Part shown: positions 1-16,880 of the stretch, in pieces
Layout: every line of letters starts with the position of its first letter
How positions within the stretch are numbered: the first letter of the stretch is position 1
Origin: a virus
Strand: one strand, 5' to 3'
IMG/VR virus record: IMGVR_UViG_3300020312_000687
Location: 1-35,338 of that record
DNA length: 35,338 nucleotides
The notes under the pieces: generated by a model
Databases searched by the model: none
Told to the model about the DNA's origin: nothing
The model's input: only the letters and a program-made list of their open reading frames with translations
Program-made: the position numbers and the translations under genes

Positions 1-271
1 CAGGTGCATACAATTCTATCAAGTCTTCTAACTCTTGTCTACTACCAAATGTGTGAACTACATCAATATACTTAATTGCCTCAAGCATTGCAACTCTATA
101 ACATAGATTATTAATTGGTCTATGATCTCCTTTATCTGCCTTTATCTTTTCATCTGTATCGGTAGCAACAATAACTTTATTACCAAGTGACCTTGCAACC
201 TTAAACAGTTGAATATGTCCTGGATGAAGTATATCAAATGTACCATTACACCATACTATGTTATTCTCCAT
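1..271 (-). CDS. Nucleotidyltransferase, cytidylyltransferase-like (partial, 3' end outside window)
   Basis: Ninety N-terminal residues are visible; the reading frame runs off the window edge at base 1. The protein opens MENNIVWCNGTFDILHPGH and carries the HxGH nucleotide-binding signature (H16-P-G-H19) right after the first strand and TFD. It continues with an IVATDTDEKIKAD stretch and an R-x-M-x-E helix. This is the pattern of the glycerol-3-phosphate / ADP-heptose type cytidylyltransferase family, which activates a phosphorylated sugar or polyol with a nucleotide. The substrate cannot be told from this half, and the C-terminal ISSTxIR-type motif would lie outside. The start ATG shares one base with the stop of the upstream oxygenase gene (TAATG), so translation is probably coupled. 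Its place after sulfotransferase and glycosyltransferase genes suggests sugar-nucleotide supply for glycan or virion decoration (inference). Confidence 0.85.
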   Translation of the reverse strand, partial: MENNIVWCNGTFDILHPGHIQLFKVARSLGNKVIVATDTDEKIKADKGDHRPINNLCYRVAMLEAIKYIDVVHTFGSRQELEDLIELYAP

Positions 272-963
272 TAGTTTGTTACCTCAATATTATATCTTTT
301 AGATAAATCTGCATTAATATCCGCAAGTGTAGGAAATCCTTTTACCTCAGCCCAACATACCATAGAATATCTCATTCCTTTTCTTACAGGTTCCACTCCA
401 TGTTTATAAAGATATGTAGATGGAAATGCAACCAACATTCCTGGTTCTGGTCTTACTCTTACACCCATATCTGGAAAAAGAAAATCACCACCCTCATATC
501 CATCATTCAAATAAAATACCATAGAAATATCACGGTCTGTTGATTTCTTCCATATCAACTCACCTTCAGGTGTTTTCCATAAACTCTCTGCATCAATATG
601 TGGTTGATAATGACCACCCACACCATACGAAAGTAATTGAGGCACTTCACTATAACTGATTTCTAACTCATAAAAAGGATTAATTATATCTTTTACAGTA
701 TTCCTCAACAATTCTTCTATCTTAGAAGCTAGAGGACCATGATCCACAACTTGAGTATCTCTTATTTCTTTATCAGTTCTCCAATGAGTATCTCCAGTTT
801 CATTAGATTTTTTAGGATCAAACACTTGAAGATCATTCTTTTGAGAATCTTCCATATGTCGAACTATTTCTTTAAGTCCCTCTGGATTTATCACATTCCT
901 TCTTATAAGAACCCATTCAAGAGGATTCCTAGTATTGTAACGATTCTCAAAAGTATATGCCAT
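271..963 (-). CDS. 2OG-Fe(II) oxygenase, prolyl 4-hydroxylase-like
   Basis: A 230-residue soluble protein with the complete double-stranded beta-helix dioxygenase signature. The Fe ligands are H122-x-D124 (in GGHYQPHID) and H188 (in YKHGVEPV), and R198 (in GMRYSMVCW) is placed to bind the 2-oxoglutarate carboxylate. Between them runs DISMVFYLN...GGDFLFP...PEPGMLVAFPS, the usual order of the P4H-like subfamily. Family members hydroxylate protein side chains, often proline, using O2 and 2-oxoglutarate. In marine T4-like phages they are common accessory genes of unknown target. The gene lies 38 bases downstream of the sulfotransferase, and that gap carries an extended -10-like motif. Its stop overlaps the next start. 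The substrate is unknown; tail proteins encoded nearby, which contain Pro-rich linkers, are candidates by context only. Confidence 0.87.
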   Translation of the reverse strand: MAYTFENRYNTRNPLEWVLIRRNVINPEGLKEIVRHMEDSQKNDLQVFDPKKSNETGDTHWRTDKEIRDTQVVDHGPLASKIEELLRNTVKDIINPFYELEISYSEVPQLLSYGVGGHYQPHIDAESLWKTPEGELIWKKSTDRDISMVFYLNDGYEGGDFLFPDMGVRVRPEPGMLVAFPSTYLYKHGVEPVRKGMRYSMVCWAEVKGFPTLADINADLSKRYNIEVTN

Positions 964-1001: not shown

Positions 1002-1838
1002 CTATGCAATCTCCTGAAAAATATACTTGTGATTATTATTCTTCCAAAACTCAAAATCACTAAAATTATACAATACAGCCTCATTTAAAATATCTTTAGG
1101 ATCTTTTGATATTTTTTTAAGTTCTTTTCTAACTTTATGCATATCTTTTAAATTCCATTCCTTATCATTCTCAGGATGTTTGTTATCAATATAAGTATAA
1201 TTATGCTGATAATAATCAAGTTCTAAAAAATCATATATCCTTTTCATAGTAACATCAGGATTATTAACTATATCCTCATATTCTACTAATAATAAATGAG
1301 AATCGTCATGACATATAAAAAGAGATTTATATAAAACATAAAGAGATTGTCCTACTATTCCTTCCATACTCATTAAATGCTGACACCTCAGCTCATCGGT
1401 ACATGGATATCCCTTTTCTATTAAAAATTCATCAAGATATGAAACTTGATCATTATTTTTATGAACTAAGGTTATAAAAGATGTAAGTATATCCAATACA
1501 TTCCTAACAGTACAAATAATTTTAGGATTAGGATTTATATAAGTTTTTATTCTTTCAATATTACCAGGCCATGCACGATTATGATCTATAATTATCGGTT
1601 TTTCAATATCATAATAATAATTATCAATTATACTACTAACAATTCTATGTGCTGCTTTAGGTTTTGGAAAAGCATCATAAGATTCACTATCAATAAAATA
1701 TTTATTATTATAATATAATAATTCAACCACTGGACTTATAGGTCCACTATGTATTTTTGGATTTTGATCCAAAAGAGTTTTTAATAAAGTCACACCAGAT
1801 CTTGGAAGACCTGCCATAAAATAATATTCATGTTTCAT
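1002..1838 (-). CDS. Sulfotransferase family protein (PAPS-dependent)
   Basis: A 278-residue protein with both PAPS-binding elements of the sulfotransferase P-loop family. The 5'-phosphosulfate loop AGLPRSGVT lies at residues 9-17, directly after the first strand. The 3'-phosphate-binding stretch IICTVRNVLDILTSF has R112 and S120 in the usual R-x7-S spacing. VEYEDIVNNPDVTMKRIYDFLEL near residue 200 matches the family's later E-D-L...P...l..i..FLg region. Such enzymes transfer sulfate from PAPS to a hydroxyl on a sugar, tyrosine or small molecule; the acceptor cannot be predicted. The gene follows the 1000-residue kelch-like protein by 20 bases, and its start lies in a 37-bp repeat shared with the gap after another kelch-like gene. 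No ribosome-binding site is obvious. A role in decorating phage fibres or host glycans is inference. Confidence 0.88.
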   Translation of the reverse strand: MKHEYYFMAGLPRSGVTLLKTLLDQNPKIHSGPISPVVELLYYNNKYFIDSESYDAFPKPKAAHRIVSSIIDNYYYDIEKPIIIDHNRAWPGNIERIKTYINPNPKIICTVRNVLDILTSFITLVHKNNDQVSYLDEFLIEKGYPCTDELRCQHLMSMEGIVGQSLYVLYKSLFICHDDSHLLLVEYEDIVNNPDVTMKRIYDFLELDYYQHNYTYIDNKHPENDKEWNLKDMHKVRKELKKISKDPKDILNEAVLYNFSDFEFWKNNNHKYIFQEIA

Positions 1839-1867
1839 AATAAAATTATTATATCATATTAAACTAC
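1831..1867 (-). repeat. 37-bp intergenic direct repeat, copy 1 (kelch gene end / sulfotransferase start)
   Basis: Two mismatches in 37 bases separate this element from 5520-5556. It covers the last codons and stop of the kelch-like gene, a TGATATAAT extended -10-like motif (1848-1856) and the first codons (ATGAAACA) of the next gene. Both copies occupy the same kelch-to-modifier junction although the following genes are unrelated (sulfotransferase here, DUF6445-like protein there). It could be a recombination joint, a small promoter, or both. Confidence 0.8.
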
Positions 1868-4861
1868 ATTAGGAGTTCCTACCTCAGTAATTCCTTGGTC
1901 TCTTGGTCCATATCCAAATCCATTAGTTCTATTAGTTGGAGCTCCTGCAGGTACAGTGCTCATAGTCTCGGTAGAAAAAACTAATTTTTGAGTACCAGGA
2001 TATGGATTATTTGAACCCATAAAATAACCTTTTTCATTATCTCCAGTATTTACTTTATAAGCATTTGCATTCAAATTAGGAGCAGGGGAAAGAGTTTCAG
2101 TTGCATAAGTCACTTTAAATAATAAAGTATTTTGACTTCCAGGAGTAGCCCATACACCACCACCAAAGTATCCCTGTGTTTTATTTCCTGTTCCTGCTAT
2201 CTGACCATATCCCCAATAATTAGATGGAGATGAACCAGGATTTGGTACATTTCCTATCGAAGGAACGTATTCCTGAACATCATCATTAGAAAATGTTACT
2301 TTTGCAAAACCAGTTCTATAATAACTCATAGAAGCATATAATGCAGTTGGAGAAGAAGCAGCTCCACCTCTTTGTCTATTATTTGACAGATTTGATAAAC
2401 TCTCACTTGTATCATTAGAGTAATTCAATTTTTCAACACTAGATCTACCACTAGGTGCATTACCACCAATAGTATATCCATGAGTAGTAGATCCAGATGA
2501 AAAGTTATGGTATCTGGCACTAATCATATTTGAAGGAGATCTTGACGTTGTACTACTCGAATATGTTGATTTATAAATTGTACTATAATAATTTCCTTGG
2601 AATTGTCCTCCCATCATATATCCATGAGTGGCACTTCTATTAGAAGATCCATCAGTAAATTTACTTGCACTTCCTGGTAATCCAGGCAAACCAGGCATTA
2701 CCATTCCAGGCATGGTTGTATACGTTTCACTAGAGAAATCCAATCTCTCTGTATTAGAATAACCAGGAGCTGAAGGACCATTTCCACTAGTAAAATAACC
2801 ATGAGCTGTAGCTCCTGTAGGATAACTAAGAAATTCAGGATTAGTTGGTGTTTCTACTGGAGGTGTTTGGAATGGCATATTATCATCACTAGCACTCATT
2901 CCTGCTCCAGAAACCATTACACTCGCTAAATTAGGTAATTGTGAGAAAGTTTCAGTAGAATAAGTGTATTTGTAAATATCACTTCTATGATAAGCTGGAT
3001 TTGGATTACTAGACCAACCTCCTACAAGATAAGCATTAGTAGGATTACCCACTGTTGTTATCTTGGCATTAATTGCTGGAAGTGCAGCTGGATTAGTTGA
3101 TGTTGTCTCTGTTGCAAATGTTGTTTTGAAAACAGAGCTATACCAAGTGCTACCGTTATCAATTCCACCATAACTATATCCTGCAGAAGCTTCACTAGTT
3201 CCATAATTATTGTTTAACATTGTTGGTAAATCAGCACTAGGAACCTGAGATGTCGTTTCACTACTAAAATGTATTTTATCTACCTTAGTTCTAGCAGTTC
3301 CAGGATATTGTCCACCACCAGCCATATAACCATGTGCATTGTTTACATATGATGAACCTGCTCTTCTTGCGATACTAAGATATGCATTAGATGGTAATGT
3401 AGTTGGACTCTCAGTGGCATAATCCATCTTATATGAATTATCCTTTAAACTACTACCAGGTTGCCCTTTACCTCCAAGACCATAAAAAGCTGTTTGAGGC
3501 CCATCAGTCATTGCAAATGAATCAAATCTCCTGTTACCCCAATTAGGACTACTACCTCTAGTGTCCGTAGAATAATGGAATTTGTCCATCGATTCTGACC
3601 CATCACCTGGAGTTGAACCAGATTGTCCTCCTGCTATATACCCTGTTGATGAATTTCCTGCAGCAAATTGATATCTAGTAGCAATATTCTGATCAGCTGA
3701 TGGAATTCTAGCACTAGTATCTGTTGAATAATTAATTTTAAATGTTCTTGTGTTTCCACTACCTGGATATGGTGATACTTGCTCTCCTCCAGTGACATAT
3801 CCAAAATCAAAAGATGCTACCTTACCAGTAAATGTTTGAGTTGGTTTTGGAAGTGCTTTATTATCTGCAACTGACGATAATGATCCTAAATCTTGTACTC
3901 CCTGTGACAAATCCAATGCAGGAAGTCTAGTCATACTATTGGTTGAGAATTGCATTCTTTCAACAATAGATGTCTCTGTTCCCCCTGCAAAATATCCTCT
4001 ACTATGACTTCCTGTACCAGTCAGTCTCATTCTTCCATTGTTAGTAGGAACAGTACTATTAGTTACAATACTACTAGTTCCAGATGCAAAAGTAACTTTT
4101 TGCACTCTACTACTATATGGGTTTGAACCACCAACCAAATAAAATCCAGTATCACTTGAAGCCTGACCTGCTTTTTGATTTCTATTTAAGTTTGGTAAAC
4201 CAGGAAGGTTTGGAAGAGAACCCCAAGAATCACTAGAATATGTAAATTTATTAACTCTACTTCCACTTTGTGTTGCACCACCAACCCAATATCCAGCATT
4301 ATCTCCATCACCAGATGCAGAATTATTCCATGCACCACTAGGATATCCTGGCATATTAGCTCCAGGAATACGTTCTAAAGTTTCAGTAGAATATGTTAAT
4401 TTCTCTAATCGTGTATAACCATTTGGTTCGCTAGGGCCAATTCCACCACAAAGATATCCAATCGTTGAACTACCACAACTTCCACCCTTTGAATATGCTG
4501 CAGTCATATTAGCACTTGGGAGTGCAGCATGTGTTTGAGTAGAAAGAGTTAATTTGTCAATACTGCTGTAATGGGTACTAGGATTGGCCATTCCACCATA
4601 AGTATATCCTGCAGAAGGACTCGCAGTTCCAAATACTCCTATTTTTGCTATAGATAATGGTGATATATTTCCTTTAGTCTCTGTACTATAATTAATAGTT
4701 TGGTAATTAGAAGTTGATTGATTACTCGAATTTTGGCCACCAACAATATATCCAACTTCTTGTAAACTATCTTTACCATAAACATCATCCAAAGGAACCC
4801 ACTCACCTTCTCTCTGGCGAGTCCTTACAGTTTCTAGTATGAAGATTCCTCTAGTTGTCAT
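1859..4861 (-). CDS. Giant kelch-like repeat virion protein A (three predicted six-bladed propellers)
   Basis: A 1000-residue protein made of about 18 repeats of roughly 50 residues. Each has a GYxxGG turn followed by a K-x-T/N-Y/F-S-T/S-E/D-T-x(4)-P strand pair, the pattern of kelch/galactose-oxidase-type beta-propeller blades. Repeat turns fall near residues 38, 86, 136, 191, 241, 290 / 354, 408, 460, 511, 561, 611 / 689, 748, 796, 841, 898, 946. That is three groups of six, separated by linkers at about 335-345 and 661-677 rich in Pro and Thr. The N-terminus (TRGIF.L...EGE.VPL) is shared with two paralogs in the window. Collagen-like PGLPGLPG occurs near residues 723-730. There is no signal peptide or membrane segment. 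The family appears in marine myoviruses as tail-fibre or structural protein; a receptor-binding role is likely but inferred. The fourth repeat of block 3 has a degenerate turn (ALYASMSY). Confidence 0.75.
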   Translation of the reverse strand: MTTRGIFILETVRTRQREGEWVPLDDVYGKDSLQEVGYIVGGQNSSNQSTSNYQTINYSTETKGNISPLSIAKIGVFGTASPSAGYTYGGMANPSTHYSSIDKLTLSTQTHAALPSANMTAAYSKGGSCGSSTIGYLCGGIGPSEPNGYTRLEKLTYSTETLERIPGANMPGYPSGAWNNSASGDGDNAGYWVGGATQSGSRVNKFTYSSDSWGSLPNLPGLPNLNRNQKAGQASSDTGFYLVGGSNPYSSRVQKVTFASGTSSIVTNSTVPTNNGRMRLTGTGSHSRGYFAGGTETSIVERMQFSTNSMTRLPALDLSQGVQDLGSLSSVADNKALPKPTQTFTGKVASFDFGYVTGGEQVSPYPGSGNTRTFKINYSTDTSARIPSADQNIATRYQFAAGNSSTGYIAGGQSGSTPGDGSESMDKFHYSTDTRGSSPNWGNRRFDSFAMTDGPQTAFYGLGGKGQPGSSLKDNSYKMDYATESPTTLPSNAYLSIARRAGSSYVNNAHGYMAGGGQYPGTARTKVDKIHFSSETTSQVPSADLPTMLNNNYGTSEASAGYSYGGIDNGSTWYSSVFKTTFATETTSTNPAALPAINAKITTVGNPTNAYLVGGWSSNPNPAYHRSDIYKYTYSTETFSQLPNLASVMVSGAGMSASDDNMPFQTPPVETPTNPEFLSYPTGATAHGYFTSGNGPSAPGYSNTERLDFSSETYTTMPGMVMPGLPGLPGSASKFTDGSSNRSATHGYMMGGQFQGNYYSTIYKSTYSSSTTSRSPSNMISARYHNFSSGSTTHGYTIGGNAPSGRSSVEKLNYSNDTSESLSNLSNNRQRGGAASSPTALYASMSYYRTGFAKVTFSNDDVQEYVPSIGNVPNPGSSPSNYWGYGQIAGTGNKTQGYFGGGVWATPGSQNTLLFKVTYATETLSPAPNLNANAYKVNTGDNEKGYFMGSNNPYPGTQKLVFSTETMSTVPAGAPTNRTNGFGYGPRDQGITEVGTPNVV

Positions 4862-4897
4862 ATCTAAAGAGTTATTACTACTCTAAATTACTATATG

Positions 4898-4905
4898 TAT
4901 TTAGA
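4898..4905 (-). promoter_or_regulatory. Late-promoter-like motif before kelch-like protein A
   Basis: The minus strand reads TCTAAATA, one mismatch from the T4 late consensus TATAAATA, placed 36 bases before the ATG in a 45-base gap. Spacing suits a short leader, but the gap is AT-rich and no strong ribosome-binding site follows. Confidence 0.35.
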
Positions 4906-4906
4906 A

Positions 4907-5527
4907 CTAATCCCAGTCTATAGGATTAAAAAAGAATAATTGAACAATTCTTCCATTTTCAAGACAGTCTCCAAAATTATAATTATGAGAATGCCACATG
5001 TCAGCTCTGAATATTACTATCCTATTAAACTTCATTGCAGATAAAAAATATCTTGTCCACTGAGATCTATCAAGACCACCTCCATATACAGTACTATGCC
5101 ATTGTTCTTTTAAACTTCCATATCCATAAACATTTTCAGATTCTTTTGGATTCATAGAAATGTAATCCATATTGGTTTTGTTATGAACCCAAAATGATGT
5201 ACCGCCTTCATCAATACATTGTTCTGGTGTATTCATATAGCATACTGCACCATATTCCCAAGATGGATCTACATGAATATCCTGCTTAAAACTATCCTTC
5301 TCTAACGACAACCTAAAATATCCATTAGGTTTAGCAGGAATTAACTTTTTATTTAATACATCTTCAAATTTCTGGTGCAATTCTTTTGGATAATATGCTC
5401 TTTCAGAATTTCTACCAGGATATGTGTATCCGTCACTTGGAGGTGGATATCCAGCATTTAATGCAAATTGACGGACTTCTTCAGCATTATGATGAAAATC
5501 ATCAATAACAATAATATTTTGTTTCAT
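4907..5527 (-). CDS. DUF6445-like putative 2OG-Fe(II) oxygenase-fold protein
   Basis: A 206-residue protein starting MKQNIIVIDDF. It has the order expected for a 2OG dioxygenase-like jelly roll: H85-V-D87 in DIHVDPSWEYGAVCYMN, GGTSFW at 108-113, NRIVIFRADMWHS with H179, and R193 in NGRIVQLFFFN. All three candidate metal ligands (H85, D87, H179) and a carboxylate-binding arginine are present, so it may be catalytically active. Assignment to DUF6445 is from memory of the family's pattern and not from a search. It sits between two kelch-like genes, 45 bases before protein A and 20 bases after protein B. Its start codons lie in the 37-bp repeat shared with the sulfotransferase. It is a divergent paralog of the protein at 7655-8197. 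The substrate is unknown; a fibre protein is a contextual guess. Confidence 0.68.
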   Translation of the reverse strand: MKQNIIVIDDFHHNAEEVRQFALNAGYPPPSDGYTYPGRNSERAYYPKELHQKFEDVLNKKLIPAKPNGYFRLSLEKDSFKQDIHVDPSWEYGAVCYMNTPEQCIDEGGTSFWVHNKTNMDYISMNPKESENVYGYGSLKEQWHSTVYGGGLDRSQWTRYFLSAMKFNRIVIFRADMWHSHNYNFGDCLENGRIVQLFFFNPIDWD

Positions 5528-5556
5528 AATAAAATCATTATATCATATTAAACAAC
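5520..5556 (-). repeat. 37-bp intergenic direct repeat, copy 2 (kelch gene end / DUF6445-like start)
   Basis: Matches 1831-1867 with two substitutions. It includes the stop of kelch-like protein B, the motif TGATATAAT at 5537-5545 and ATGAAACA of the following gene. The -10-like hexamer is only 9 bases from the ATG in both copies. If it drives transcription, the mRNA would be nearly leaderless. Confidence 0.8.
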
Positions 5557-7662
5557 ATATGGTACACTTACCATACCATTAGTATCATCTTGTGCAGATC
5601 CTGCTGTATTGTAAATAGCAGTGAAAGTCATATTTGCAGGAGATTCTGAAGTAGTATCAGTAGAATAAATATATTTCATATAACTGGTATGATCACCACC
5701 TGACATAAATGCATTTGTAACATTACCAGATGCAGCCCAGTCTCCTTCACCTCTTGTCAGATTACCTCCTATTGAAATAGTTTCGGTACTATAATTAAAC
5801 TTATTTGTTATAGAAGTATTATCATTTGTTCCCATCCAATATGCATCATTAATATTTCCTGCTGATGCTCCACGCATTGGTTGACTAGGCCCTAATTCTA
5901 ATTTTGCTCCTGGTATGAGTGACCATGTTTCATTAGAAAAAGTTAATTTTGAAGTATTTGAAACATTAGATGGACTAGGAGCATCTGCACCACCACCACG
6001 GTATCCTGCTGTTGTGCTAGATCTACCAAATGCATCTGATCTTGCATGTGGTACATTTGCTGATGGCATGTCTGAATAAGTTTCAGATGAATAAGTAAGT
6101 TTAGTGGTAATAGATCTACCACCAAACCAACCATCACTTCCACCAGAGAAATATCCTTTTCCACCAGCAGGATATGAAAATCCTGTCATATTATTACTAC
6201 CAAAATGATTATGACTTGGAGTATTTCTAGCTGATGGCATATTTAAGAAATTAAGAGTTTTTGTATCAGTGGAATATACTATCTTATCAGTTCCAGACCA
6301 TCTTGCAGGAGAACTTGGGTGAGAATATCCACCAGCTTGATACCAAGTAGTATCACTAGATACCACTGCAGCATCAGCAAGATCTTTACTTAGATTACCC
6401 AAACCAGTAACAGTTTCAGTCGCATAATTTAATTTATTTGAATTATTATCATAAGAACCAGTACCCCAGTATCCAAAATTAGGAACTCCTCCTTTTGCTT
6501 CCTGTCGAGGAGTAGTATCCGTTGGAGTTGGTGTTGGTGGATCAAATGTCGCAAGTGCATTCTTTCTTGCACCTGTTCCCATCTGACCAACTGCTCTAGC
6601 ATTTTGAAGAGTAGTTTTTCTTCTTTCAACTGTGTCAGTAGCAAAATTTATTTTATCAACCCAACTTCTCATATCACCTGGAGTACCAGGAGCAGGATAC
6701 AATCCACCTGCAAAATACCCAGATTGTTTATCACCCGAACCAGCTAACCCTCTTCTTTCTCCTGGTCCCCAATAAGAGGGTAGATTATAATTATAACTAC
6801 CATATATGGTTGGAGACGCTGCAAAAGTTTCAGTTGCATATGTCAATTTCTGTGCTTGAACTTCGCCACCAGTAAAACCATTATGTGGACCTGATGTACC
6901 ACCAGCAAAATATGCATGAGTATCATTTCCAGTCGAACCCATAGAGAAATAACTCATATTACTATTTCCAATTTGAGTCATAGTATCAGTACTATACTCC
7001 ATTCTTGATGCGTCTGCAGTAGTAGGAAATCCTCCTACAAAATAACCTCGTGTCTCATGTCCAATACTTGATTGCCTAGTTCTATTACCAGGCAAATTAG
7101 CAGTTGAAGGTAAATTGGAAAAAGTCTCTTCAGAAAAAACTATTTTTTGAACTACAGAAGTAGCATTTGATTGATCTCCACCAGCAAAATAACCAGTTTC
7201 ATCATTTCCTACTGCAGCCTTCTGCGTCCATTCATCAGATCCACCAGGTCCATTTGCAAATGTTCCACTCGGACTAGACGACTGCGACTCAGTGGAATAA
7301 GTTAATTTATAAACCCTAGTTCTCTGATTTCCAGCATACCATGATATAGTAGTTGATGGAGTATTGAAACCATCGTCAGTTGCACCTATAGTAAATGGCA
7401 ATTGAGCACTTGGTACACTAGAATTAGTATCAGTTGATATATCAATTTTATCAGCATATGTTGTTTTTTCTGGAAGACTTGATGGATATCCAGGTTGATA
7501 CCCATTACCTCCAGTAAAATACATATTAGAAGGTAGTTTTGCTTTACCATCTACAAATCTTGTATCTCCAGCCCAAACAGAAGGCAGTGGCACACCTTCA
7601 CCTTCTATGGTGGCATCATTATACTCACCTAAAGTAAAAATGTTTCTGGTAGTACTAGCCAT
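5548..7662 (-). CDS. Giant kelch-like repeat virion protein B (two predicted six-bladed propellers)
   Basis: A 704-residue paralog of the proteins at 1859-4861 and 10794-13961. GYxxGG-type turns lie near residues 48, 108, 158, 207, 251, 316, then 398, 440, 504, 554, 608, 651, giving two groups of six. One linker at about 374-393 starts FDPPTPTPTDTTPRQ. Each blade carries the K-x-x-Y-S/A-T-E/D-T strand. The first 28 residues (STTRNIFTLGEY...EGEGVPLPSVW) match the N-termini of the two paralogs, suggesting a common docking peptide. Its start overlaps the preceding DUF6445-like gene by 8 bases, so it is likely co-translated. It is probably a secreted-side or fibre-type virion protein, since there is no signal peptide; host-surface binding is inferred from the fold type and location. 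Confidence 0.75.
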   Translation of the reverse strand: MASTTRNIFTLGEYNDATIEGEGVPLPSVWAGDTRFVDGKAKLPSNMYFTGGNGYQPGYPSSLPEKTTYADKIDISTDTNSSVPSAQLPFTIGATDDGFNTPSTTISWYAGNQRTRVYKLTYSTESQSSSPSGTFANGPGGSDEWTQKAAVGNDETGYFAGGDQSNATSVVQKIVFSEETFSNLPSTANLPGNRTRQSSIGHETRGYFVGGFPTTADASRMEYSTDTMTQIGNSNMSYFSMGSTGNDTHAYFAGGTSGPHNGFTGGEVQAQKLTYATETFAASPTIYGSYNYNLPSYWGPGERRGLAGSGDKQSGYFAGGLYPAPGTPGDMRSWVDKINFATDTVERRKTTLQNARAVGQMGTGARKNALATFDPPTPTPTDTTPRQEAKGGVPNFGYWGTGSYDNNSNKLNYATETVTGLGNLSKDLADAAVVSSDTTWYQAGGYSHPSSPARWSGTDKIVYSTDTKTLNFLNMPSARNTPSHNHFGSNNMTGFSYPAGGKGYFSGGSDGWFGGRSITTKLTYSSETYSDMPSANVPHARSDAFGRSSTTAGYRGGGADAPSPSNVSNTSKLTFSNETWSLIPGAKLELGPSQPMRGASAGNINDAYWMGTNDNTSITNKFNYSTETISIGGNLTRGEGDWAASGNVTNAFMSGGDHTSYMKYIYSTDTTSESPANMTFTAIYNTAGSAQDDTNGMVSVPYVV

Positions 7663-8197
7663 TTTTTATAATAATCTTCTTGTAAAGCATAGAAGTATTT
7701 AGATCTGAACCAAATCCATTACCATAAGAATGCCATAAATCACTACGAAATAGAATCAATCTATTATGTTTAATTGGTATAGATCCATATTCTTTCCAAT
7801 ACTTTGCATTACAATCAAATGTTTTAGATATATCAGTAATATTATGTTTTTTTATTTGTTCTTGAGTTGGAAATGAATCAAGACCAGTTTCTTTATGAGA
7901 ATAAAATTTAATACCAACCTCACCCCAGTTGACAAGAGGTAAACTTAAATATAAAACTCCAATATAATCACTTCCCTGATGACAACAGATTGGGTATCTA
8001 TCATTTTCTTTTAGAATATGATCGTTACATTCTAATACTTGAATCTCAGATTTAAGAATAGAGGATATATTCTGAAAGATTTTACTCTCAGGATATTGCT
8101 CCTCTATCTTTAATCTAAATTCAGGTTTAATAATTTTATCATAATATGCAATAGGAAATTCAATAAAATTATCAATAACAAAGATTTTTTGTTTCAT
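7655..8197 (-). CDS. DUF6445-like protein, catalytic site degenerate
   Basis: A 180-residue paralog of the protein at 4907-5527: the start MKQKIFVIDNF and the block NRLILFRSDLWHSYGNGFG correspond closely. The first metal-binding motif is altered: where the paralog has H-V-D it has H73-Q-G-S-D77, and the arginine expected for 2-oxoglutarate binding near the C-terminus is not apparent (NTSMLYKKIII). H156 is kept. It may be inactive, use another Asp, or act as a partner or scaffold for the active paralog. The start ATG overlaps the stop of the glycosyltransferase gene by one base (TAATG), and the stop overlaps the next kelch-like gene by 8 bases. It is therefore embedded in a tightly coupled operon with both a glycosyltransferase and a propeller protein. 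Confidence 0.6.
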   Translation of the reverse strand: MKQKIFVIDNFIEFPIAYYDKIIKPEFRLKIEEQYPESKIFQNISSILKSEIQVLECNDHILKENDRYPICCHQGSDYIGVLYLSLPLVNWGEVGIKFYSHKETGLDSFPTQEQIKKHNITDISKTFDCNAKYWKEYGSIPIKHNRLILFRSDLWHSYGNGFGSDLNTSMLYKKIIIKNG

Positions 8198-10029
8198 TAA
8201 CGACCAAATCCTTCACCTGTTGAATAATAACCTCCTTTCTTTTCTCCTTCTATCTGCTTTTTCTCTTCTGCAGGTTTTATTGCACCAAGATTTTTACCAG
8301 ATAATTTCTCATATCCACGAAGAACCTTATTCTGAAGATCTTTTACAAATTCATCTTTTCCTGCTTGTGTAAGCAAAGTATCCATAGGAAGATAACCTTC
8401 TTTCAATTCATTCTTAGGATCTACAATAGCAGGGCCAGATGCACGACGCATTGCCTGAATGTTACCTATAGAAATACCAGTACGTGATGCCATAAGATCA
8501 TCAAGAGCCTGTTCTGCAAGACGAGTATCCCAATATTCCTCATTCTCTTCTAAGAACTGTGCTCTATTTGGAGGTACACCACCATTTTGTTCCACCAACT
8601 TATCCATCATCTTATCCATATGCTCCATTTGATGAAGACGATCACGAATTTCAAGTTCACTAGATCTTAAGTAATGTGTAAGATTAAGTTCCTCTAAATC
8701 ATACCAACAAAGATTTTTTCTACCACCATCAGTTCCAACATCATAAATCAAAGGTTGTGTTTTATCCTCATGATTTGCCCACTTCCAATCAAACTCACGA
8801 ACTCTTTCTTTCATTTCAATAAGTTTCTGCATATAACCACTTGCCATAATTCTGCGTTCTTTCAAAATATGCTCAAAAGTAACAGATAGGTTATGAGTAT
8901 TCAAACCAATAAATTTCTCAAGTTGGAAGTTAGTTCTTCCTTGAGCCATCTCTCTATCACTTTGCTCCCACCTAAAAACATTCTCAGAAGCAATCTGCAA
9001 ATAATCTTCATCAGTTACTGCTTGATGTGCATTAATTGGATCATAAGGCAACATTGAAGTTTCTTTCTTTGCAGTTGTTTCTACAATGTTTTCATTTGAT
9101 TCAGTCATAGTAATTGATTCTCCAGTAATGCTATGTATTAAAGTTTTCCATTGGTTGGAAATGGTCTTCCAATTATATTTTTCAATAACATAATCAGAAA
9201 TTCTTTTTGAGACTTGTTTATGATAAGACTTATCCTTATCATAATGATCTAAAATCAAGCAACAAGTTTCAGCAAAGTTATTTATGAAGTTGTCTGTAAC
9301 CTCATACCCTTTATTTGTAGGGTTTCCCTCTATGGGAACTATTTGTGCATTGTTTTCACCAGCGACTTCAGCAAGTGCTCCAATATCAGTAATGATTGGA
9401 AATGCACCACACCTCATTGCTTCGGTCATTGAAACACAAAATGTTTCTTCCCATTTATTAGGATGAACAAAGAATGCAGCCTCTTGATAATGCTCTACTA
9501 AGTTTTCTCTATCGATTGCTCTTGAGTATTCTACATTAGAAAGTGATTTAAGTAAATCATATGTGTCAATATAAGTATCTAATTGATCATCACCATACAA
9601 AGACATTGATGAAAATATCTTAAATTTAGTATCAGGATGCTTTTTATGGACAATAGGAATCACTTTAGCAAGCACTTCCAAACCTTTATATGGTATAGAA
9701 GTATAAATCATACTCTTTGTCTTCTTATCTGAATAGGAAAACATTTCAGCAACTCCATTAGGAATTACACTAATCTTATCTTCTGGAACCTTATGATATC
9801 GAATAAACATCTGTCTATTCCATTCCGAAGGAGATACAATATGATTAACTATATTATGATCAAATTCATAGAAAAGATGTTGATCGTATGCATGATGAGC
9901 CCATAAAATTTTATATGCATGATCTGATAATTTTATCTGATCAGGTAAATGAGATACAAAAACATTATCAGGAAATTGATAATGCTCATGTAAATACATA
10001 TATGATGTCTCGGTTGCTCCTGATTTCAT
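8197..10029 (-). CDS. GT4-type glycosyltransferase fused to a C-terminal domain of unknown function
   Basis: A 610-residue two-part protein. Residues ~60-300 show a GT-B family 4 C-terminal half: HIVSPSEWNRQMF, VIPNGV at 88-93, IYTSIPYKGLEVL, FVHPNKWEETFCVSMTEAMRCGAFPI with the E195-x7-E203 donor-site motif, and GALAEVAG. The part before IPNGV is only about 90 residues, against roughly 170 in typical members, and an in-frame TAA just upstream rules out a longer start. The acceptor-binding lobe is thus shortened. Residues ~330-610 are a mostly helical, charged region (FRWEQSDREMAQGR, DYVIEKY-free, WANHEDKTQP, EIRDRLHQMEHMDKMMDKL) that I do not recognise. It ends in a flexible GGYYSTGEGFGR tail. 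The gene starts 2 bases after the preceding glycosyltransferase, so the two probably act on the same glycan or target. Confidence 0.8.
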   Translation of the reverse strand: MKSGATETSYMYLHEHYQFPDNVFVSHLPDQIKLSDHAYKILWAHHAYDQHLFYEFDHNIVNHIVSPSEWNRQMFIRYHKVPEDKISVIPNGVAEMFSYSDKKTKSMIYTSIPYKGLEVLAKVIPIVHKKHPDTKFKIFSSMSLYGDDQLDTYIDTYDLLKSLSNVEYSRAIDRENLVEHYQEAAFFVHPNKWEETFCVSMTEAMRCGAFPIITDIGALAEVAGENNAQIVPIEGNPTNKGYEVTDNFINNFAETCCLILDHYDKDKSYHKQVSKRISDYVIEKYNWKTISNQWKTLIHSITGESITMTESNENIVETTAKKETSMLPYDPINAHQAVTDEDYLQIASENVFRWEQSDREMAQGRTNFQLEKFIGLNTHNLSVTFEHILKERRIMASGYMQKLIEMKERVREFDWKWANHEDKTQPLIYDVGTDGGRKNLCWYDLEELNLTHYLRSSELEIRDRLHQMEHMDKMMDKLVEQNGGVPPNRAQFLEENEEYWDTRLAEQALDDLMASRTGISIGNIQAMRRASGPAIVDPKNELKEGYLPMDTLLTQAGKDEFVKDLQNKVLRGYEKLSGKNLGAIKPAEEKKQIEGEKKGGYYSTGEGFGR

Positions 10030-10031
10030 AA

Positions 10032-10748
10032 TTATCCGTTATAGTATCCCCACTTTTGAAGTGGTTTAGGTACAGGTTCTACTGTTGGTTGAGCAGCACC
10101 TTCGTAAATATGAAACCCACAATGATTCAATGCAATACTAGTATCTAACCACATCTCATAACCCACTGCCTCAGCTCTTGCAAAGAAACTTTTATCTTCC
10201 GCAACAAATCCATCACCTTTCTTCAATTCAGCAAAATAATGATATGAATTATCCATTTCTGCCTCTGTAGGAGGAACATCACTATCCTTCAGTTCAGGTG
10301 TATATTTTAATTCAGGATGGGCTTTTGCAACATCAAGAAAAACTTTACGATGTATCAAACAAAATCCCATTCCATTCCCATCAATTTTAAGCAAATCTCC
10401 CTTTCTTTCTTCTGGTTGTTTAACATTAACACAATATCTCATAGGTATCGTTTTCATGGGATATGTCCCAGATACCATTGGCAATTTATAATTTAATAAC
10501 TTTACTACATCAGTTGGTTCAAAACCTATATCACTATCTAAAAAGAACAAATATTCAAACTCTGTATTATTAATAAAGAAATTAGCACATTTTGATCTTG
10601 CCTGTGTAATCAGGGAAGAATTAGTAAGTGTTAATAATCCATGATCAATATTATTTCTCAAAAAAAGTTTACCGAGATTGAATAACCCCAGAGTTGTTTT
10701 TTCCATTACAATTCCCCCATGAGCTGGGAGGGCAATCACGACACTCAT
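10032..10748 (-). CDS. GT-A-fold glycosyltransferase (family 2-like)
   Basis: A 238-residue protein opening with MSVVIALPAHGGIV. It has the DxD sugar-nucleotide/metal motif D71-S-D73 in YLFFLDSDIGF, the acceptor/donor segment GNGMGFCLIHRKVF, an E-D acidic pair in VAEDKSFFARAEAVGYEMWLD, and a late His in LNHCGFHIYEG. This order is typical of GT-A enzymes found widely in tailed-phage genomes. The donor and acceptor are unknown. It is the first modifier gene after kelch-like protein C and lies 2 bases before the GT4-type enzyme, so a two-step glycan is plausible. An extended -10-like motif precedes it in the 45-base gap. Soluble, with no membrane segment, so it likely acts in the cytoplasm of the infected cell. 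Confidence 0.82.
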   Translation of the reverse strand: MSVVIALPAHGGIVMEKTTLGLFNLGKLFLRNNIDHGLLTLTNSSLITQARSKCANFFINNTEFEYLFFLDSDIGFEPTDVVKLLNYKLPMVSGTYPMKTIPMRYCVNVKQPEERKGDLLKIDGNGMGFCLIHRKVFLDVAKAHPELKYTPELKDSDVPPTEAEMDNSYHYFAELKKGDGFVAEDKSFFARAEAVGYEMWLDTSIALNHCGFHIYEGAAQPTVEPVPKPLQKWGYYNG

Positions 10749-10765
10749 AAATTATCTTTTTTTAT

Positions 10766-10774
10766 ATTATAACA
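10766..10774 (-). promoter_or_regulatory. Extended -10-like motif upstream of the GT-A glycosyltransferase
   Basis: The minus strand reads TGTTATAAT, 17 bases before the ATG at 10748, in the gap after kelch-like protein C. A loose TTGCAT lies 16 bases upstream of the hexamer, a poor to fair -35 box. TATAAAAA, one mismatch from the late consensus, overlaps just downstream, so early and late readings compete. Confidence 0.35.
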
Positions 10775-10793
10775 TACTTACACTAATATGCAA

Positions 10794-13700
10794 CTAAAGA
10801 TTTACTGGAGATGGATTTTGAGAAATTGAATGATCTCTTGCTGTTGTGCTAGCTCCAGCACTTAAAGGTAATGGTAATGCTGCACCAGGAGCATATGCAA
10901 CAGTTTCTGAACTATAAGTCAATTTTTGAACTCCAGTGTTATCATGACCAGAAGGGTTACTTGAAGCACCACCAAAAGTATAACCATCAGTAGTATTTCC
11001 ACTTGCTTGAGCAAAATATTTCATATAACTTGGATGTCCATTTAAAGAAATTGATGGGACAACTGATCCTGTTTCATTACTCATATTAATTTTATAACCA
11101 GAATTAGTATTTGAAGAAGGAGTATCTTCACCACCTAAAAGATATCCACTATAAGGACTTCCTGATACGGCTCCTGCCTTAGATCTTCCTGCAGTTATAC
11201 TAGGTAAAACTGATGCTGTATCTGAAGAATAAACCATTTTATCAGTAGTATTAAAAGCTGCTGGAGAATTTCCTTCTCCACCTATCCAATAACCTATTTC
11301 ACGATTACCTGTTGCATTTATAAAAATTCTTCCTTGATTAAGAGTTGCTGGTATTTGTTGTGTAGAATCACTCGACCAGGTCATTTTTAAGAAATGAGTA
11401 GAATATCCACTTGGCCAATTAAGTCCACCTGCAGAATATCCATGAGTAGGATTACCAGTTGCACCAAATCCTCTCCAGTTACCTGTAGTACCACCCATTA
11501 AACCTGGTATTTGAGATCTACTATCAGTCGCATAATTTACTTTATCACTATTTGGAGCATAACTACCTGCTGGATCTTTTCCTGCATGGAAGTATCCATT
11601 TGTCTCAGTGCTATTTGACGCATATTCAAATCTTCTTATCGATAGAGTAGCTGCTTCTCCCTGATTGGTATCAGTAGCTAAATTAGTTTTATAGATTGCC
11701 ATCGGATTACTACCACTTTTAGGATTGTAACCAAACGCAGTAAGAGCAGTATTAGTAGCAGAAGGGCTAAGAAGAGGAACAGTTTGAGAAGTTGGTGTTG
11801 CTGTTGGTGCAGTTGGAACAGGTTTACCATTTGACATCTGACTAAATGCAGCTGATCTATTTCTACCTGAACCTGGAGAAAAACTACTAGCTTCACCTAA
11901 AACTGAAAAAGTTTCAGTTGTAAAACTCAATTTTCTAACAGTGCTATATCTTTGTGGGTAATTAGTAGCTTGTCCACCTCCAGAATATCCATCAGTTGAA
12001 TTGCCAGTTGCATTAGCACTATAGACCCGATATGCTGGACCTGGTTGTGGAACCGTAGATCTAGTCTCGGTAGAAAAATTAAACTTCTCTACATCACCAG
12101 GTATTTCATTAGATCCAGGATAATATCTTCCACCCATAATATATCCATGAGTAGAACTGGACATTGATGAATGCATAAAAGAACCAGGATTTGTACCTAT
12201 ATTTGCAGGAATGTTTGATACAGTTTCAGTAGCATAAGTAAGTTTATTGATCGTTGATACTGCTACATTTGAACTAGATGGAGCATCACGATTTCCACCA
12301 TAAGCATATCCATGTGCCAAATTAACATCTCCCCATGAAGCTATATAATTTGCAGCATGAGAATAATTTGCTCCTGGAACTGTTGTTGCTGTATCTGTAG
12401 CAAATGTGATTTTATCAGTACTAGATATTAATACATTACCTGAATCATTTTGACCAGCAACAATATATCCCACTGATGGTTGTACTATACTATTATTATC
12501 ATTATTTCTTGTTCTTTTTACACCAGGATAAGCACCAGGAAGGAATGAATAAGTTTTAGTGGCATATGTAAATTTAATAAAATCATTATTACCACCACTT
12601 GGTTCTCCACCACTTACCAATACTTTTGTAGTATCAGAAAGAACACCAGCATAATTTGATCCATCTCTAGGCATCGTACTAGAAGGAAGTGCTGAACGAG
12701 TATTAGAATTGAAATCTATCTGATCAGTACTACTAGTTTGAGATGGAGATCCTCCACCACCTGACCAGTATCCTACATTTAAGGTTTTAGGATCAAGATC
12801 ATCTATCCATCTATAAGGAGCTCCACCAGGTGCAGGACTTGGAGTTGAGTATTGTCTAGGGCCCGCAGTCTGCATTAGAGACGTTGCTTGACCCAAATTA
12901 GCACCTGGCGTTGCTGCCATAGTACCATTACTAAAAGTTAATTTATTAGCACTACTATAAGGGCCACCAGGTCCAGCAGGTGCAGCATTATTCCAACTAT
13001 TTCCACCTGCAAAATATCCATCAGACCCATTATCTACTCCACCATGTCTAAATGTCGCATAAGTTAATTGAGTAGATGGAAGACTATACTCAATCGAATC
13101 AATTGACATAGTAAGTCTCGACACTGTTGTCTGACCTATTAATGAACCACCTTGAGGCCCTATTTGCATACCACCTGCATACCAGATATATTGATTATTC
13201 GCAGCTGCTGCTTCACCATCTCCTTTATACTTACTATTACCTAAGTAAATACCTGGTGCTTGCACCATAGTCTCATTTAAATATGTTAACTTACTAATTT
13301 TTGTGCTTAGTGAAGAAGGAGAACCAATATTCCCACCCGTTACAATTGCTTTTTCCTGATTTCCTGCTGCTGTTGCTCCATAAAAATCATAAGAAAGATT
13401 TGCACCAGGTATTCGTTCTGAAGTATCATAAGCAAAAGTATATTTCTGGGTATAACTGGTTCTTGAAGAACCATCCATCTGATTCACACCACCAAAATAA
13501 TATCCAAAGTTCATACCATCACCTACTCCTTGAGTAGATTGTTTAGGTTCAACTTTAAGTCCATTAGAACCTGGTAGAAGAGCCCAAGCTCCAGTTGCAT
13601 AAGTTAATTTACGAACATTTGTCTGGTTAGGGTTTAATCCAGGTACATTAGGACCACCTCCAGAATACATAGCAACAAGAGAGGACATTCCCAGTCCACC

Positions 13701-13961
13701 ATACATTGGATTATTAAGATTAGATCCTGGCAATCTTGAAGTCGTGCTTGTGGCATATGTAATCTTATATGTCTCACTACTTACATTAGAAGCACTGTTA
13801 GTGGAGTCATACTCATTCCTCAGACCACCAACCATATAGGAGGCATCTTCTGTTGCTATGGGGGCAGGAGGAACCCAAGCATCAGTAACTGCTACTCCAT
13901 CTCCTTGTACATTTTCTGTTCTTAGAGTTCTAAGTCTAAAAACACCTCTATTTTCAGCCAT
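10794..13961 (-). CDS. Giant kelch-like repeat virion protein C (three predicted six-bladed propellers)
   Basis: At 1055 residues, the largest of the three paralogs. Blade turns (GYxxGG or variants) fall near residues 42, 98, 154, 206, 260, 316 / 398, 448, 499, 552, 607, 659 / 745, 790, 842, 891, 940, 994. These form three sets of six, split by linkers at about 367-395 (STPSPAPGGAP) and 710-740 (PVPTAPTATPTSQTVP). Each blade ends with K-x-T-Y-A/S-T-x-T-x(4)-P. The N-terminus (ENRGVFRLRTLRTE...GDGVAV) matches the shared docking motif. The gene begins 6 bases after the GIGT-repeat fibre gene, which ties the kelch family to the structural operon. A tail-fibre or receptor-binding function is inferred; sugar-binding or enzymatic activity of the propellers cannot be excluded. 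Confidence 0.75.
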   Translation of the reverse strand: MAENRGVFRLRTLRTENVQGDGVAVTDAWVPPAPIATEDASYMVGGLRNEYDSTNSASNVSSETYKITYATSTTSRLPGSNLNNPMYGGLGMSSLVAMYSGGGPNVPGLNPNQTNVRKLTYATGAWALLPGSNGLKVEPKQSTQGVGDGMNFGYYFGGVNQMDGSSRTSYTQKYTFAYDTSERIPGANLSYDFYGATAAGNQEKAIVTGGNIGSPSSLSTKISKLTYLNETMVQAPGIYLGNSKYKGDGEAAAANNQYIWYAGGMQIGPQGGSLIGQTTVSRLTMSIDSIEYSLPSTQLTYATFRHGGVDNGSDGYFAGGNSWNNAAPAGPGGPYSSANKLTFSNGTMAATPGANLGQATSLMQTAGPRQYSTPSPAPGGAPYRWIDDLDPKTLNVGYWSGGGGSPSQTSSTDQIDFNSNTRSALPSSTMPRDGSNYAGVLSDTTKVLVSGGEPSGGNNDFIKFTYATKTYSFLPGAYPGVKRTRNNDNNSIVQPSVGYIVAGQNDSGNVLISSTDKITFATDTATTVPGANYSHAANYIASWGDVNLAHGYAYGGNRDAPSSSNVAVSTINKLTYATETVSNIPANIGTNPGSFMHSSMSSSTHGYIMGGRYYPGSNEIPGDVEKFNFSTETRSTVPQPGPAYRVYSANATGNSTDGYSGGGQATNYPQRYSTVRKLSFTTETFSVLGEASSFSPGSGRNRSAAFSQMSNGKPVPTAPTATPTSQTVPLLSPSATNTALTAFGYNPKSGSNPMAIYKTNLATDTNQGEAATLSIRRFEYASNSTETNGYFHAGKDPAGSYAPNSDKVNYATDSRSQIPGLMGGTTGNWRGFGATGNPTHGYSAGGLNWPSGYSTHFLKMTWSSDSTQQIPATLNQGRIFINATGNREIGYWIGGEGNSPAAFNTTDKMVYSSDTASVLPSITAGRSKAGAVSGSPYSGYLLGGEDTPSSNTNSGYKINMSNETGSVVPSISLNGHPSYMKYFAQASGNTTDGYTFGGASSNPSGHDNTGVQKLTYSSETVAYAPGAALPLPLSAGASTTARDHSISQNPSPVNL

Positions 13962-13967
13962 GATTTA

Positions 13968-16880
13968 TCAAACAGTTATTTTCTTAGCAGATAATTGAAC
14001 ACCCATTGTGCTTGCCTCATCCAATTGTACTTTAATAATCGCACCAGAAGCAATTCTCTTCTGATTATCTAATATTTCAACAGATCCATATTTTGGAATT
14101 ATTAGATTCTCAACAAGTCTTATGGTTTCTCCACCATCAACAACCTGAACAGTAATTGGTTTAGGACCAGCATCACTTATATTAGCGATTCTAATAGATT
14201 GTAATACACTTGGTGCTCCAGTTGAAGTATATAGAGTGTTTAGATTTGTATTATTCAATGTATTAGCTCCCAATCCAACTCCAACATAATCAGTTCCACT
14301 ATCAAGGGTTTCATATGTTCCATAATATTCAACAACACTGTCAACACCATTTCTATCAATGTCAGTAGATCTAAGTAGAATCTTATCTGATGGATTTAAA
14401 ACTTGTGGTTGACGTAGTAATTCAGCAGCCATACCTACAGGAATTGGAAGGTTATATCCCATATAACTTCTTTCTCCTCCATTAAAGTCAAATGCACCAA
14501 TTACATTAACTTCAGTATTTGCTGTGGCCACGTTAGTAGCAAGAAGTGAACGAAGAATGTACTTCTTACCAGCAGTTGATGGGAATGTGAATACAGTAGA
14601 ACCAATACCAACTGCAGTTCCGTGGAATTCCCCAGACAATCCAGTATTGAAGTCACCTGATCCACCACCGCCTCCACCAGCGATACTAATATCAACCGTA
14701 GAACCATCAACAGCAAATGTATTACCAGCACCAATAAAGTTTAGTACAGTTGCATTTCCTATTGAAGTTCCTGCAGATGATACACCAACAGTTGCATCAC
14801 CCCAAGTAACAGTTGTAGAGTTTCCTGCTGATTTAAGTACTTGCCCTGCTGTTCCGTAGTTAGCACCACCAATACCAAGTTGGCCTGATGCACCTATACG
14901 AAGTTTTTCTGAACCATTATTACTAAATTTAATATTACCACTAGCTCCACCATTATTTGCGAAATTTACATCAGTTCCACTGAAACTAATTTGAGCATTA
15001 TTAGAAGCATTATTTGTTAATCTAGTAAGTCTTATTGTTGCACCACCTGGTTGTTCGATGTGCAAACTATTTTGAGGAATATCAGTTCCAATACCAACAT
15101 TTTGGTTACTACCCTTAATGGTTAAAACATCATTTGTTACACTACCACCAGACCCATTATTAGTAGGAACACCAAATGTTAAATTTCCATCAAAAGCATT
15201 AGTACCATTTTCTTTTAATTTTATATAACCAATACCTTCAGGAGAACCTGAGTGTGCATAACCAAATCTCAATTCTGCCTGTGATGCAACACTTGTATTA
15301 TGATTAGCAGCATAAATGAATACAGTTGAACCAGTTCCAGCAGTAGTCGTAACATCAAGAGTACCAACTGGAGATGAAGAGTTAATACCTATACCACCTG
15401 AAGTACCTTGAATTAATGTTCCTGCTCCAGCATTACCAAAGTAAACACCTTGTCTTGCAGTAACAACACCAATAGAATCTACATTGGTTACATCTTGCTT
15501 AGTTAATGTACCCCCAACAGTGACGTTACCAGTGAATACACCGTCTACTGCATTAATATTTCCAGTAACAGTAGTTGTTCCTACAATATTTGTACCAGTC
15601 GCATTAATGCGAATTCTCTCTACTCCTGATGTAACAAATCCAAATTCATTTGCAGCTGGAGAATATATACCAGTATTCGTTGAACCATTAACAAAAAGTC
15701 CTGGATTACCTGTTGTTCCTGCTGCAAATCCAAGAGCTCCACCCATATTATCGCCAGTTTTCTCAATAAACTGACCTTGCATATCAAATGGTGAAGCATC
15801 AACCCAGTATGAACTAGCACCTATACCAAGTTGTACCTCATCATAATAAACAAATGTTCTCGCAGTTGTATTATTATACCAAAGTTGTCCCAATTCAGGA
15901 TCAACAGGAGCATTACCACCAACACTAGTTGCAGCACCAGCACCGCCTCCACCAGCAATACTAATATCAACTATACCAGCATCAGATCCATTTACAAGTA
16001 TAGAATTACCAGCACCAACAAAGTTAAGTCCCGTAATACCTGCACCAACTACTACACCACCAGATTGAATACCAACAGATGCAACAATAGACGAACTAAC
16101 ACCAGTAGCATTAGAAATATCTCCGTGGAAAGCAGTTGCAGTTACAATACCAAGTATATTTGCACCATCACTATTGAAAGTACCAATTCCTCCAATAACT
16201 GCTGAGTCAAGAGTAGTATTTCCTGAAACACTAAGTCCACCATTAGCGTCTATCAGTCCAGTAGAAGTAGTTACACCTGTAACAAGCACACCAGCAGGTG
16301 TAAGTGTATATCCATCAAATCCTAAATTAGCACTATCTTGTAATTCTCCACCAGCACCAACAGTTACTACTTTATTAATAGTTAAATCTTCTACTTGAAG
16401 TGTATTAGCAGTAATACCACCATTAATATCAACTGCTCCTGTAAATGTGGATACACCAGATTGAACTTCTAATCCACTACCAAATGTAGCAAGTCCAACA
16501 AATGTAGATACACCTGTAATATTTAAATTAGCAAACGTATTTGGGCCTGCTTCGATAGCAGCTTCAATAGTTGCTGTAGTTGTGGCATCTAATGATGCAA
16601 TATTTTGTAACTGTCTTGCGGAATTTATTACTGCCGTGCTACCCATCGAAATGGTAGTAGCAGAAAGGTTAGTAATCGTACCAGTCGTTGAATTCAACGT
16701 TGGTATTGTTGCTATACCCGAAATAACAAAATCTGTACCAGCGATTCCTCCGTTCACATGGAGGGTATCTGTTGGTAAGGATGTCCCTATACCAACTCTG
16801 CTGTTAGTAGTATTAGCAAGAATAAGGTCGGTTCCTACCTCTAACCCATTCTTTACTACAAAATTCTTGTTTACAGCCAT
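13968..16880 (-). CDS. Tail-fibre-like structural protein with GIGTxxP repeats
   Basis: A 970-residue protein starting MAVNKNFVVKNGLEV, an N-terminus I associate with marine T4-like fibre proteins. RVGIGTSLPTDTLHVNGG occurs near residues 28-45, with further VGIGT.xP/LHI units, the beta-rich repeats often seen in fibre shafts and in S74-type fibre proteins. Two near-identical DISIAGGGG segments (around residues 307 and 730) mark an internal duplication visible also at DNA level. The last ~225 residues (TFPSTAGKKYILRSLLATNV... to MGVQLSAKKITV) look like a distinct beta-sandwich tip domain. A good late promoter sits directly upstream. It lies between the glycine-rich adhesin-like gene and kelch-like protein C. 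I see no catalytic motif, and the exact position in the virion is not determinable from sequence. Confidence 0.78.
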   Translation of the reverse strand: MAVNKNFVVKNGLEVGTDLILANTTNSRVGIGTSLPTDTLHVNGGIAGTDFVISGIATIPTLNSTTGTITNLSATTISMGSTAVINSARQLQNIASLDATTTATIEAAIEAGPNTFANLNITGVSTFVGLATFGSGLEVQSGVSTFTGAVDINGGITANTLQVEDLTINKVVTVGAGGELQDSANLGFDGYTLTPAGVLVTGVTTSTGLIDANGGLSVSGNTTLDSAVIGGIGTFNSDGANILGIVTATAFHGDISNATGVSSSIVASVGIQSGGVVVGAGITGLNFVGAGNSILVNGSDAGIVDISIAGGGGAGAATSVGGNAPVDPELGQLWYNNTTARTFVYYDEVQLGIGASSYWVDASPFDMQGQFIEKTGDNMGGALGFAAGTTGNPGLFVNGSTNTGIYSPAANEFGFVTSGVERIRINATGTNIVGTTTVTGNINAVDGVFTGNVTVGGTLTKQDVTNVDSIGVVTARQGVYFGNAGAGTLIQGTSGGIGINSSSPVGTLDVTTTAGTGSTVFIYAANHNTSVASQAELRFGYAHSGSPEGIGYIKLKENGTNAFDGNLTFGVPTNNGSGGSVTNDVLTIKGSNQNVGIGTDIPQNSLHIEQPGGATIRLTRLTNNASNNAQISFSGTDVNFANNGGASGNIKFSNNGSEKLRIGASGQLGIGGANYGTAGQVLKSAGNSTTVTWGDATVGVSSAGTSIGNATVLNFIGAGNTFAVDGSTVDISIAGGGGGGSGDFNTGLSGEFHGTAVGIGSTVFTFPSTAGKKYILRSLLATNVATANTEVNVIGAFDFNGGERSYMGYNLPIPVGMAAELLRQPQVLNPSDKILLRSTDIDRNGVDSVVEYYGTYETLDSGTDYVGVGLGANTLNNTNLNTLYTSTGAPSVLQSIRIANISDAGPKPITVQVVDGGETIRLVENLIIPKYGSVEILDNQKRIASGAIIKVQLDEASTMGVQLSAKKITV

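Follow-up and report, generated by a model that had tools for sequence, protein, structure and literature searches.

Kelch-like propellers have already been recorded in large phages, among them CBB_550, CBB_552 and CBB_554 of the jumbo phage CBB, whose tail is whiskered, and proteins of Pseudomonas phage EL, PhiPA3 and Noxifer; CBB_552 was detected in the virion (PMC5259590), and a kelch gene is on record in cyanophage P-HM2 (PMC3037559). Propellers of other blade numbers occur in the phi11 receptor-binding protein (five-bladed, a homotrimer) and PhiKZ gp131C (seven-bladed), both host-recognition or baseplate-periphery proteins with one propeller per subunit (PMC4901313). We analysed a 35,338-nucleotide stretch of viral DNA, positions 1-35,338 of IMG/VR record IMGVR_UViG_3300020312_000687 (hereafter, the window), in which three kelch-like proteins, A, B and C, are interleaved with a cassette of predicted enzymes. 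Our reading, to which we assign a probability of roughly 0.7, is that these proteins are chains of six-bladed Kelch propellers acting as tail adhesins, and that the cassette enzymes probably modify them. The chains thus differ from the phi11 and PhiKZ proteins in blade number and in propellers per subunit, and from their top match in BFVD, BcepSaruman QBX06523 (313 amino acids, aa), a kelch-like protein likewise from a large phage but with the length of a single propeller. The initial annotation had supposed that phage chains of exactly six-bladed units would be new; phage propellers themselves are not, but the chains and their cassette appear to be, as no account of either was found in the literature searched (largely without subscription papers and without bioRxiv preprints). 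A, B and C all match phrog_19111, a family annotated as of unknown function whose 443-position profile misses the architecture of six repeats per block; the present results give this family a defined architecture and a role that can be tested. The chains and their parts are listed below.

1859-4861, minus strand: kelch-chain protein A, 1000 aa, 18 repeats (6+6+6), phrog_19111 E=2.7e-31
3872-4753, minus strand: predicted propeller block 1 of A, residues 37-330, repeats 1-6
3803-3871, minus strand: linker 1 of A, residues 331-353
2888-3802, minus strand: predicted propeller block 2 of A, residues 354-658, repeats 7-12, structure modelled over residues 342-661
2801-2887, minus strand: linker 2 of A, residues 659-687, containing TPPVETPTNP
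1901-2800, minus strand: predicted propeller block 3 of A, residues 688-987, repeats 13-18, repeat 16 degenerate
5548-7662, minus strand: kelch-chain protein B, 704 aa, 12 repeats (6+6), phrog_19111 E=1.1e-20
about 6496-6564, minus strand: linker of B, residues about 367-389, FDPPTPTPTDTTP
10794-13961, minus strand: kelch-chain protein C, 1055 aa, 18 repeats (6+6+6), repeat 13 degenerate, phrog_19111 E=1e-24
12774-12854 and 11736-11825, minus strand: linkers of C, residues 370-396 and 713-742, placed by the repeat model and composition

From 22 seed repeats we built a 48-position hidden Markov model (HMM) of the repeat, which after iteration on the three proteins gave 18, 12 and 19 matches in A, B and C. 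In C, residues 743-788 form a single degenerate repeat split into two weak matches, so that the biological count is 18 and the initial count of 18, 12 and 18, made by eye, is reproduced. The unit has the properties of a Kelch repeat (about 44-56 aa, a GG doublet and spaced aromatics), with GYFxGG and K..Y motifs; Pfam Kelch_1 was matched in A (21.7 bits against a cutoff of 20.1), and a Pfam search of B and C gave no match. Successive repeats start 41-64 aa apart within blocks and 65-85 aa apart at the five block boundaries, the 85-aa step preceding the degenerate repeat of C and the two 23-aa steps after it reflecting the split match. Given that one step inside a block of B, at 64 aa, comes close to the smallest boundary step, we placed the boundaries by linker composition together with step length. 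Proline makes up 18% of linker residues against 6% overall (Fisher P = 6.5e-7), and the Pro/Thr-rich linkers reported earlier after each sixth repeat lie within about 10 residues of our boundaries. Were linkers placed at random between repeats, the arrangement 6+6+6, 6+6 and 6+6+6 would have a probability of 1/(136*11*136) = 5e-6. The HMM barely detects two degenerate repeats: repeat 16 of A, at residues 841-893, scores 1.7 bits and repeat 13 of C 1.3 bits. Both were included in the count because the spacing and the pattern of sixes call for a repeat there.

A segment of about 35 residues, with a consensus around TRGVFSLEDVRERQVEGNWVVLSDVW, is conserved at the N terminus of the chains, and in the related loci collected it was present in 155 kelch open reading frames (ORFs) and in 0 non-kelch ORFs. 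BTB and BACK domains gave no Pfam match up to E=0.1, and block 1 of A has only about 35 residues ahead of it.

The structure of A block 2 was predicted with AlphaFold2 from 39 aligned blocks of the window and other viral contigs, yielding a predicted local distance difference test score (pLDDT) of 85.3 and a predicted template-modelling score (pTM) of 0.88. In a Foldseek search against the PDB, Kelch domains made up all of the 50 matches listed, which include a Plasmodium Kelch protein, KLHL3, KLHL12, KLHL17, KEAP1 and the designed SAKe6 proteins, with template-modelling (TM) scores to six-bladed Kelch targets of about 0.9. A sequence profile of the block likewise matched SAKe6FR (2.2e-24), KLHL12 (2.8e-11) and KEAP1 (about 1e-9), the KEAP1 match running end to end over profile positions 7-301 of 313. 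The last strand of the model (E312-315) falls after the sixth repeat. These results agree with a closed propeller of four-stranded blades, closure being read from the end-to-end match rather than from coordinates, and distinguish the block from the seven-bladed galactose-oxidase type of Kelch domain, as each block holds six repeats. They support the view that each of A, B and C is a string of closed six-bladed Kelch propellers, with the blocks of A beyond block 2, and all those of B and C, assigned by their alignment with the modelled one; the three, two and three propellers of the initial annotation thus have structural backing in A block 2 and the KEAP1 match, and are supported by alignment elsewhere. 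KEAP1, KLHL3, KLHL12, KLHL17 and SAKe6 share with the window chains a Kelch-type repeat of about 48 aa and six blades. The window chains differ from them in lacking BTB and BACK, in carrying several propellers per chain and in being viral, and identity in the fold alignments is only 14-19%.

The sequence register suggests how such chains would be built. The N-terminal segment would be followed by two or three propellers on short, often Pro/Thr-rich linkers. Each HMM unit begins at the GYFxGG strand and would comprise three strands of one blade (B, C and D) together with strand A of the following blade, the preceding R..LAAxG strand belonging to the same blade as the GYFxGG strand. In KEAP1, a C-terminal strand closes blade 1; here, strand A after the sixth unit would do so in the same velcro-like manner. 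Ring closure would then fix the blade number at six, so that a chain could grow or shrink only by six repeats, giving the one to six propellers found in relatives.

The rule of six extends to those relatives. Among loci fetched with DNA patterns derived from the repeats, six repeats are present in 190 of the 210 blocks scored as complete. As these loci had been selected by kelch motifs, the count was repeated on loci fetched with the neighbouring sulfotransferase, with near-duplicates removed (90% identity over 90% of length); the two sets share some contigs and are not fully independent. In the second set, the repeat total is a multiple of six in 55 of 60 complete non-redundant proteins, with totals of 6 (four proteins), 12 (20), 18 (16), 24 (seven), 30 (six) and 36 (two). 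Within these 55 proteins, the mean step is 69.4 aa after each sixth repeat and 48.3 aa at other positions, and the linkers expected from the initial annotation are thus kept in homologues. The five exceptions are L143 (23 repeats, with another probably missed in scoring within a step of 119 aa), the L129 pair of overlapping ORFs (17 and 2 repeats, likely a frameshift), and two very short genes. Blades within a block are on average 60% identical, and the best pair reaches at least 80% in 69 of 208 blocks. Blades so alike should allow unequal recombination to alter the count easily, and the retention of six therefore argues for ring closure, of which the repeat count would be a natural record. 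An open solenoid, or a propeller of another blade number with the sixes merely inherited by duplication, might be entertained because the only well-modelled block is A block 2 and the full-length model of A, built from an 8-row alignment, reached a pLDDT of just 28.8 and was not used; but totals stay at multiples of six across many chain lengths despite the similar blades, and the modelled block matches six-bladed Kelch domains, which leaves this explanation with very little probability.

Part of the 20 blocks with other counts in the repeat-selected set was inspected. The 12-repeat blocks of L037 and L100 are really two sixes with short linkers, the blocks of L085, L044 and L083 are cut by the contig end, and a weak repeat went unscored in L005. 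A genuine exception to six occurs in L092 (6143-9700), which has 22 repeats in blocks of 6, 6, 4 and 6, its third block having four. In Synechococcus phage S-SKS1 (L006, 47-6192), the kelch chains are spread over several ORFs in overlapping frames, representing frameshifts or sequencing errors, and counts across frames still fit sixes (6 then 3+3; 3+3 then 6). Two collapsed genes between sulfotransferase and prolyl 4-hydroxylase (P4H)-like genes (L137, 6809-7096; L144, 1841-2122) consist of the N-terminal segment and one repeat, the start of which resembles blade 1 and the end a block-terminal repeat; they represent a deletion between repeats or an assembly collapse.

In the direction of transcription, the kelch genes are preceded by a baseplate-hub-like gene and tail-fibre genes. 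Between and after them lie genes for a glycosyltransferase (GT), a phrog_1574 protein, two DUF6445 proteins resembling 2-oxoglutarate (2OG) oxygenases, a sulfotransferase and a P4H-like oxygenase.

271-963, minus strand: predicted P4H-like 2OG-Fe(II) oxygenase
1002-1838, minus strand: predicted sulfotransferase, whose orthologues adjoin kelch chains
4907-5527, minus strand: predicted DUF6445 2OG-Fe(II)-oxygenase-like protein
7655-8197, minus strand: second DUF6445-like protein (2OGc), without a clear HxD motif
8197-10029, minus strand: GT4-type glycosyltransferase, with the GT match in its N-terminal half
10032-10748, minus strand: phrog_1574 protein (PHROG match), with a weak glycosyltransferase match
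13968-16880, minus strand: tail fiber protein directly upstream of C, marking the adhesin module
19348-25215, minus strand: large tail fiber protein, phrog_529

The order fibre, kelch, 2OG oxygenase, sulfotransferase, kelch, phrog_1574, GT, 2OG oxygenase, kelch and P4H recurs, whole or in part, in many related loci. In support of a conserved cassette, kelch repeats lie within the 6-kb flanks of all 37 sulfotransferases with at least 53% identity. In a collection of 50,697 phage records, close relatives of the sulfotransferase and the P4H-like enzyme were found in AG-345-O18, AG-345-L05 and S-SKS1, marine phages that also bear kelch chains.

Compared with AG-345-O18, A is 41% and C 75% identical, against 90% for the P4H-like enzyme, 82% for the sulfotransferase, 99.5% for the DUF6445 protein, 91% for the fibre, and 90% and 94% for two other neighbours; two of the three kelch chains, A and C, are therefore the fastest-diverging genes of the cassette. 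Along the repeat, entropy is highest in columns 7-8, 10-12, 35 and 38-39, and column 8 can be followed by insertions of up to 9 aa. By register, these columns would fall in the BC and DA loops; in Kelch domains such as that of KEAP1, those loops make up the ligand face. Given that the chains follow tail-fibre genes and that variability concentrates in these BC- and DA-like loops, the kelch chains are most likely diversifying tail adhesins, a role suggested by genome position and rapid divergence. The propellers might instead decorate the capsid or tail, or form whiskers, without determining specificity, as the presence of CBB_552 in the virion of a phage with a whiskered tail (PMC5259590) and the variable length of the chains would allow; this is unlikely in view of their position after the tail-fibre genes and of the divergence of A and C, far beyond that of neighbouring structural genes (90-94% identical to AG-345-O18). 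Kelch domains are also common protein-interaction modules in cells, and the chain genes are intermixed with the enzyme genes in what looks like a single transcription unit, so the chains could be non-virion proteins acting as intracellular scaffolds or as substrates of the neighbouring transferases and oxygenases. The rapid divergence of A and C and the location within a tail-fibre module make such an intracellular role distinctly improbable. Under the adhesin interpretation, the host-attachment fibre would be modular and possibly chemically decorated, and its fixed unit could serve as a model for phage fibres that change reach in whole-domain steps.

A weaker part of our reading is that the enzymes encoded between the chains (glycosyltransferases, 2OG oxygenases, the P4H-like enzyme and the sulfotransferase) probably act on the chains themselves or on a glycan that these carry. 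The P4H-like enzyme has the HxD...H triad and basic 2OG-binding residue of prolyl 4-hydroxylases: H122xD124...H188...R198 is kept in at least 96% of the 45 sequences aligned, with R198 where animal P4H has K. In the first DUF6445 protein, H85xD87 and H179 do not vary across the 29 sequences aligned. At the HQG-motif position of 2OGc, 15 of 24 aligned sequences have H and 8 have N, and H101 and H156 are nearly invariant; the unclear HxD motif possibly reflects altered chemistry or misalignment. The fused C-terminal half of the glycosyltransferase, about 300 residues, gave no Pfam match. A match of the sulfotransferase to protein-tyrosine sulfotransferases was weak (E=5e-4) and aligned mainly over the P-loop region, and we therefore claim no substrate for it. 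The 2OG oxygenase genes of cyanophages have been discussed in connection with host metabolism or DNA repair (PMC3037559); the cassette suggests another use for some of them, and its conservation makes it worth asking if the fibres of cyanophages bear hydroxylated protein, glycans and sulfate.

Besides the single block modelled out of eight and the low-scoring full-length model of A, several observations weigh against our interpretation. Rapid divergence is not shared by every chain: over its C-terminal part, B retains 91% identity to the AG-345-O18 counterpart. Of 43 more distant sulfotransferases, at 41-45% identity, 16 have kelch repeats in the 6-kb flanks and 27 do not; three such distant sulfotransferases without kelch neighbours (L158, L170 and L196) adjoin other fibre-like genes. 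Linkers contain 13.0% proline where the locus has a P4H and 11.9% where it has none, and several chains adjoining a P4H are without Pro-rich linkers. We accordingly rejected the sulfotransferase as a kelch-specific enzyme, and it may serve several fibre types; likewise, the linker proline contents gave no support to Pro-rich linkers as the specific P4H substrate. A comparison of 15.5% linker proline with 2.5% in freshwater-type spacers was set aside because it is confounded, two lineages being compared. The fibre-like genes of L158 and L196 bear NNFFGxxAG-type repeats.

We offer only tentatively, and consider rather doubtful, a more specific proposal in which the adhesin would be hydroxylated, glycosylated and sulfated, would grow propeller by six-bladed propeller through recombination between similar repeats, and would have its Pro-rich loops or linkers decorated by P4H-like oxygenases, GTs and a sulfotransferase encoded by the phage, to match or evade the host surface.

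The kelch proteins and sulfotransferase of the window are 100% identical to those of the 67.6-kb record IMGVR_UViG_3300020470_003365 (L002-L004, L121). Photo_RC (psbA/psbD-type) genes are present in 8 of the 17 records tested, and many of these phages therefore probably infect cyanobacteria; none was seen in the 67.6-kb contig. The window phage itself is marine and probably infects cyanobacteria. A scan of bacterial and archaeal genomes with one L016 block found no relative and, as a single close query, is weak evidence for the chains being viral only.

A second type of protein was also encountered (L019, L031, L033 and L094-L109), in which P4H and sulfotransferase genes went undetected within the loci collected. 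Here, six-repeat blocks are embedded in longer proteins of up to 2956 aa; in many of these proteins the spacers consist of SGNIASGQ-like repeats, and L100 and L106 have TP-repeat linkers.

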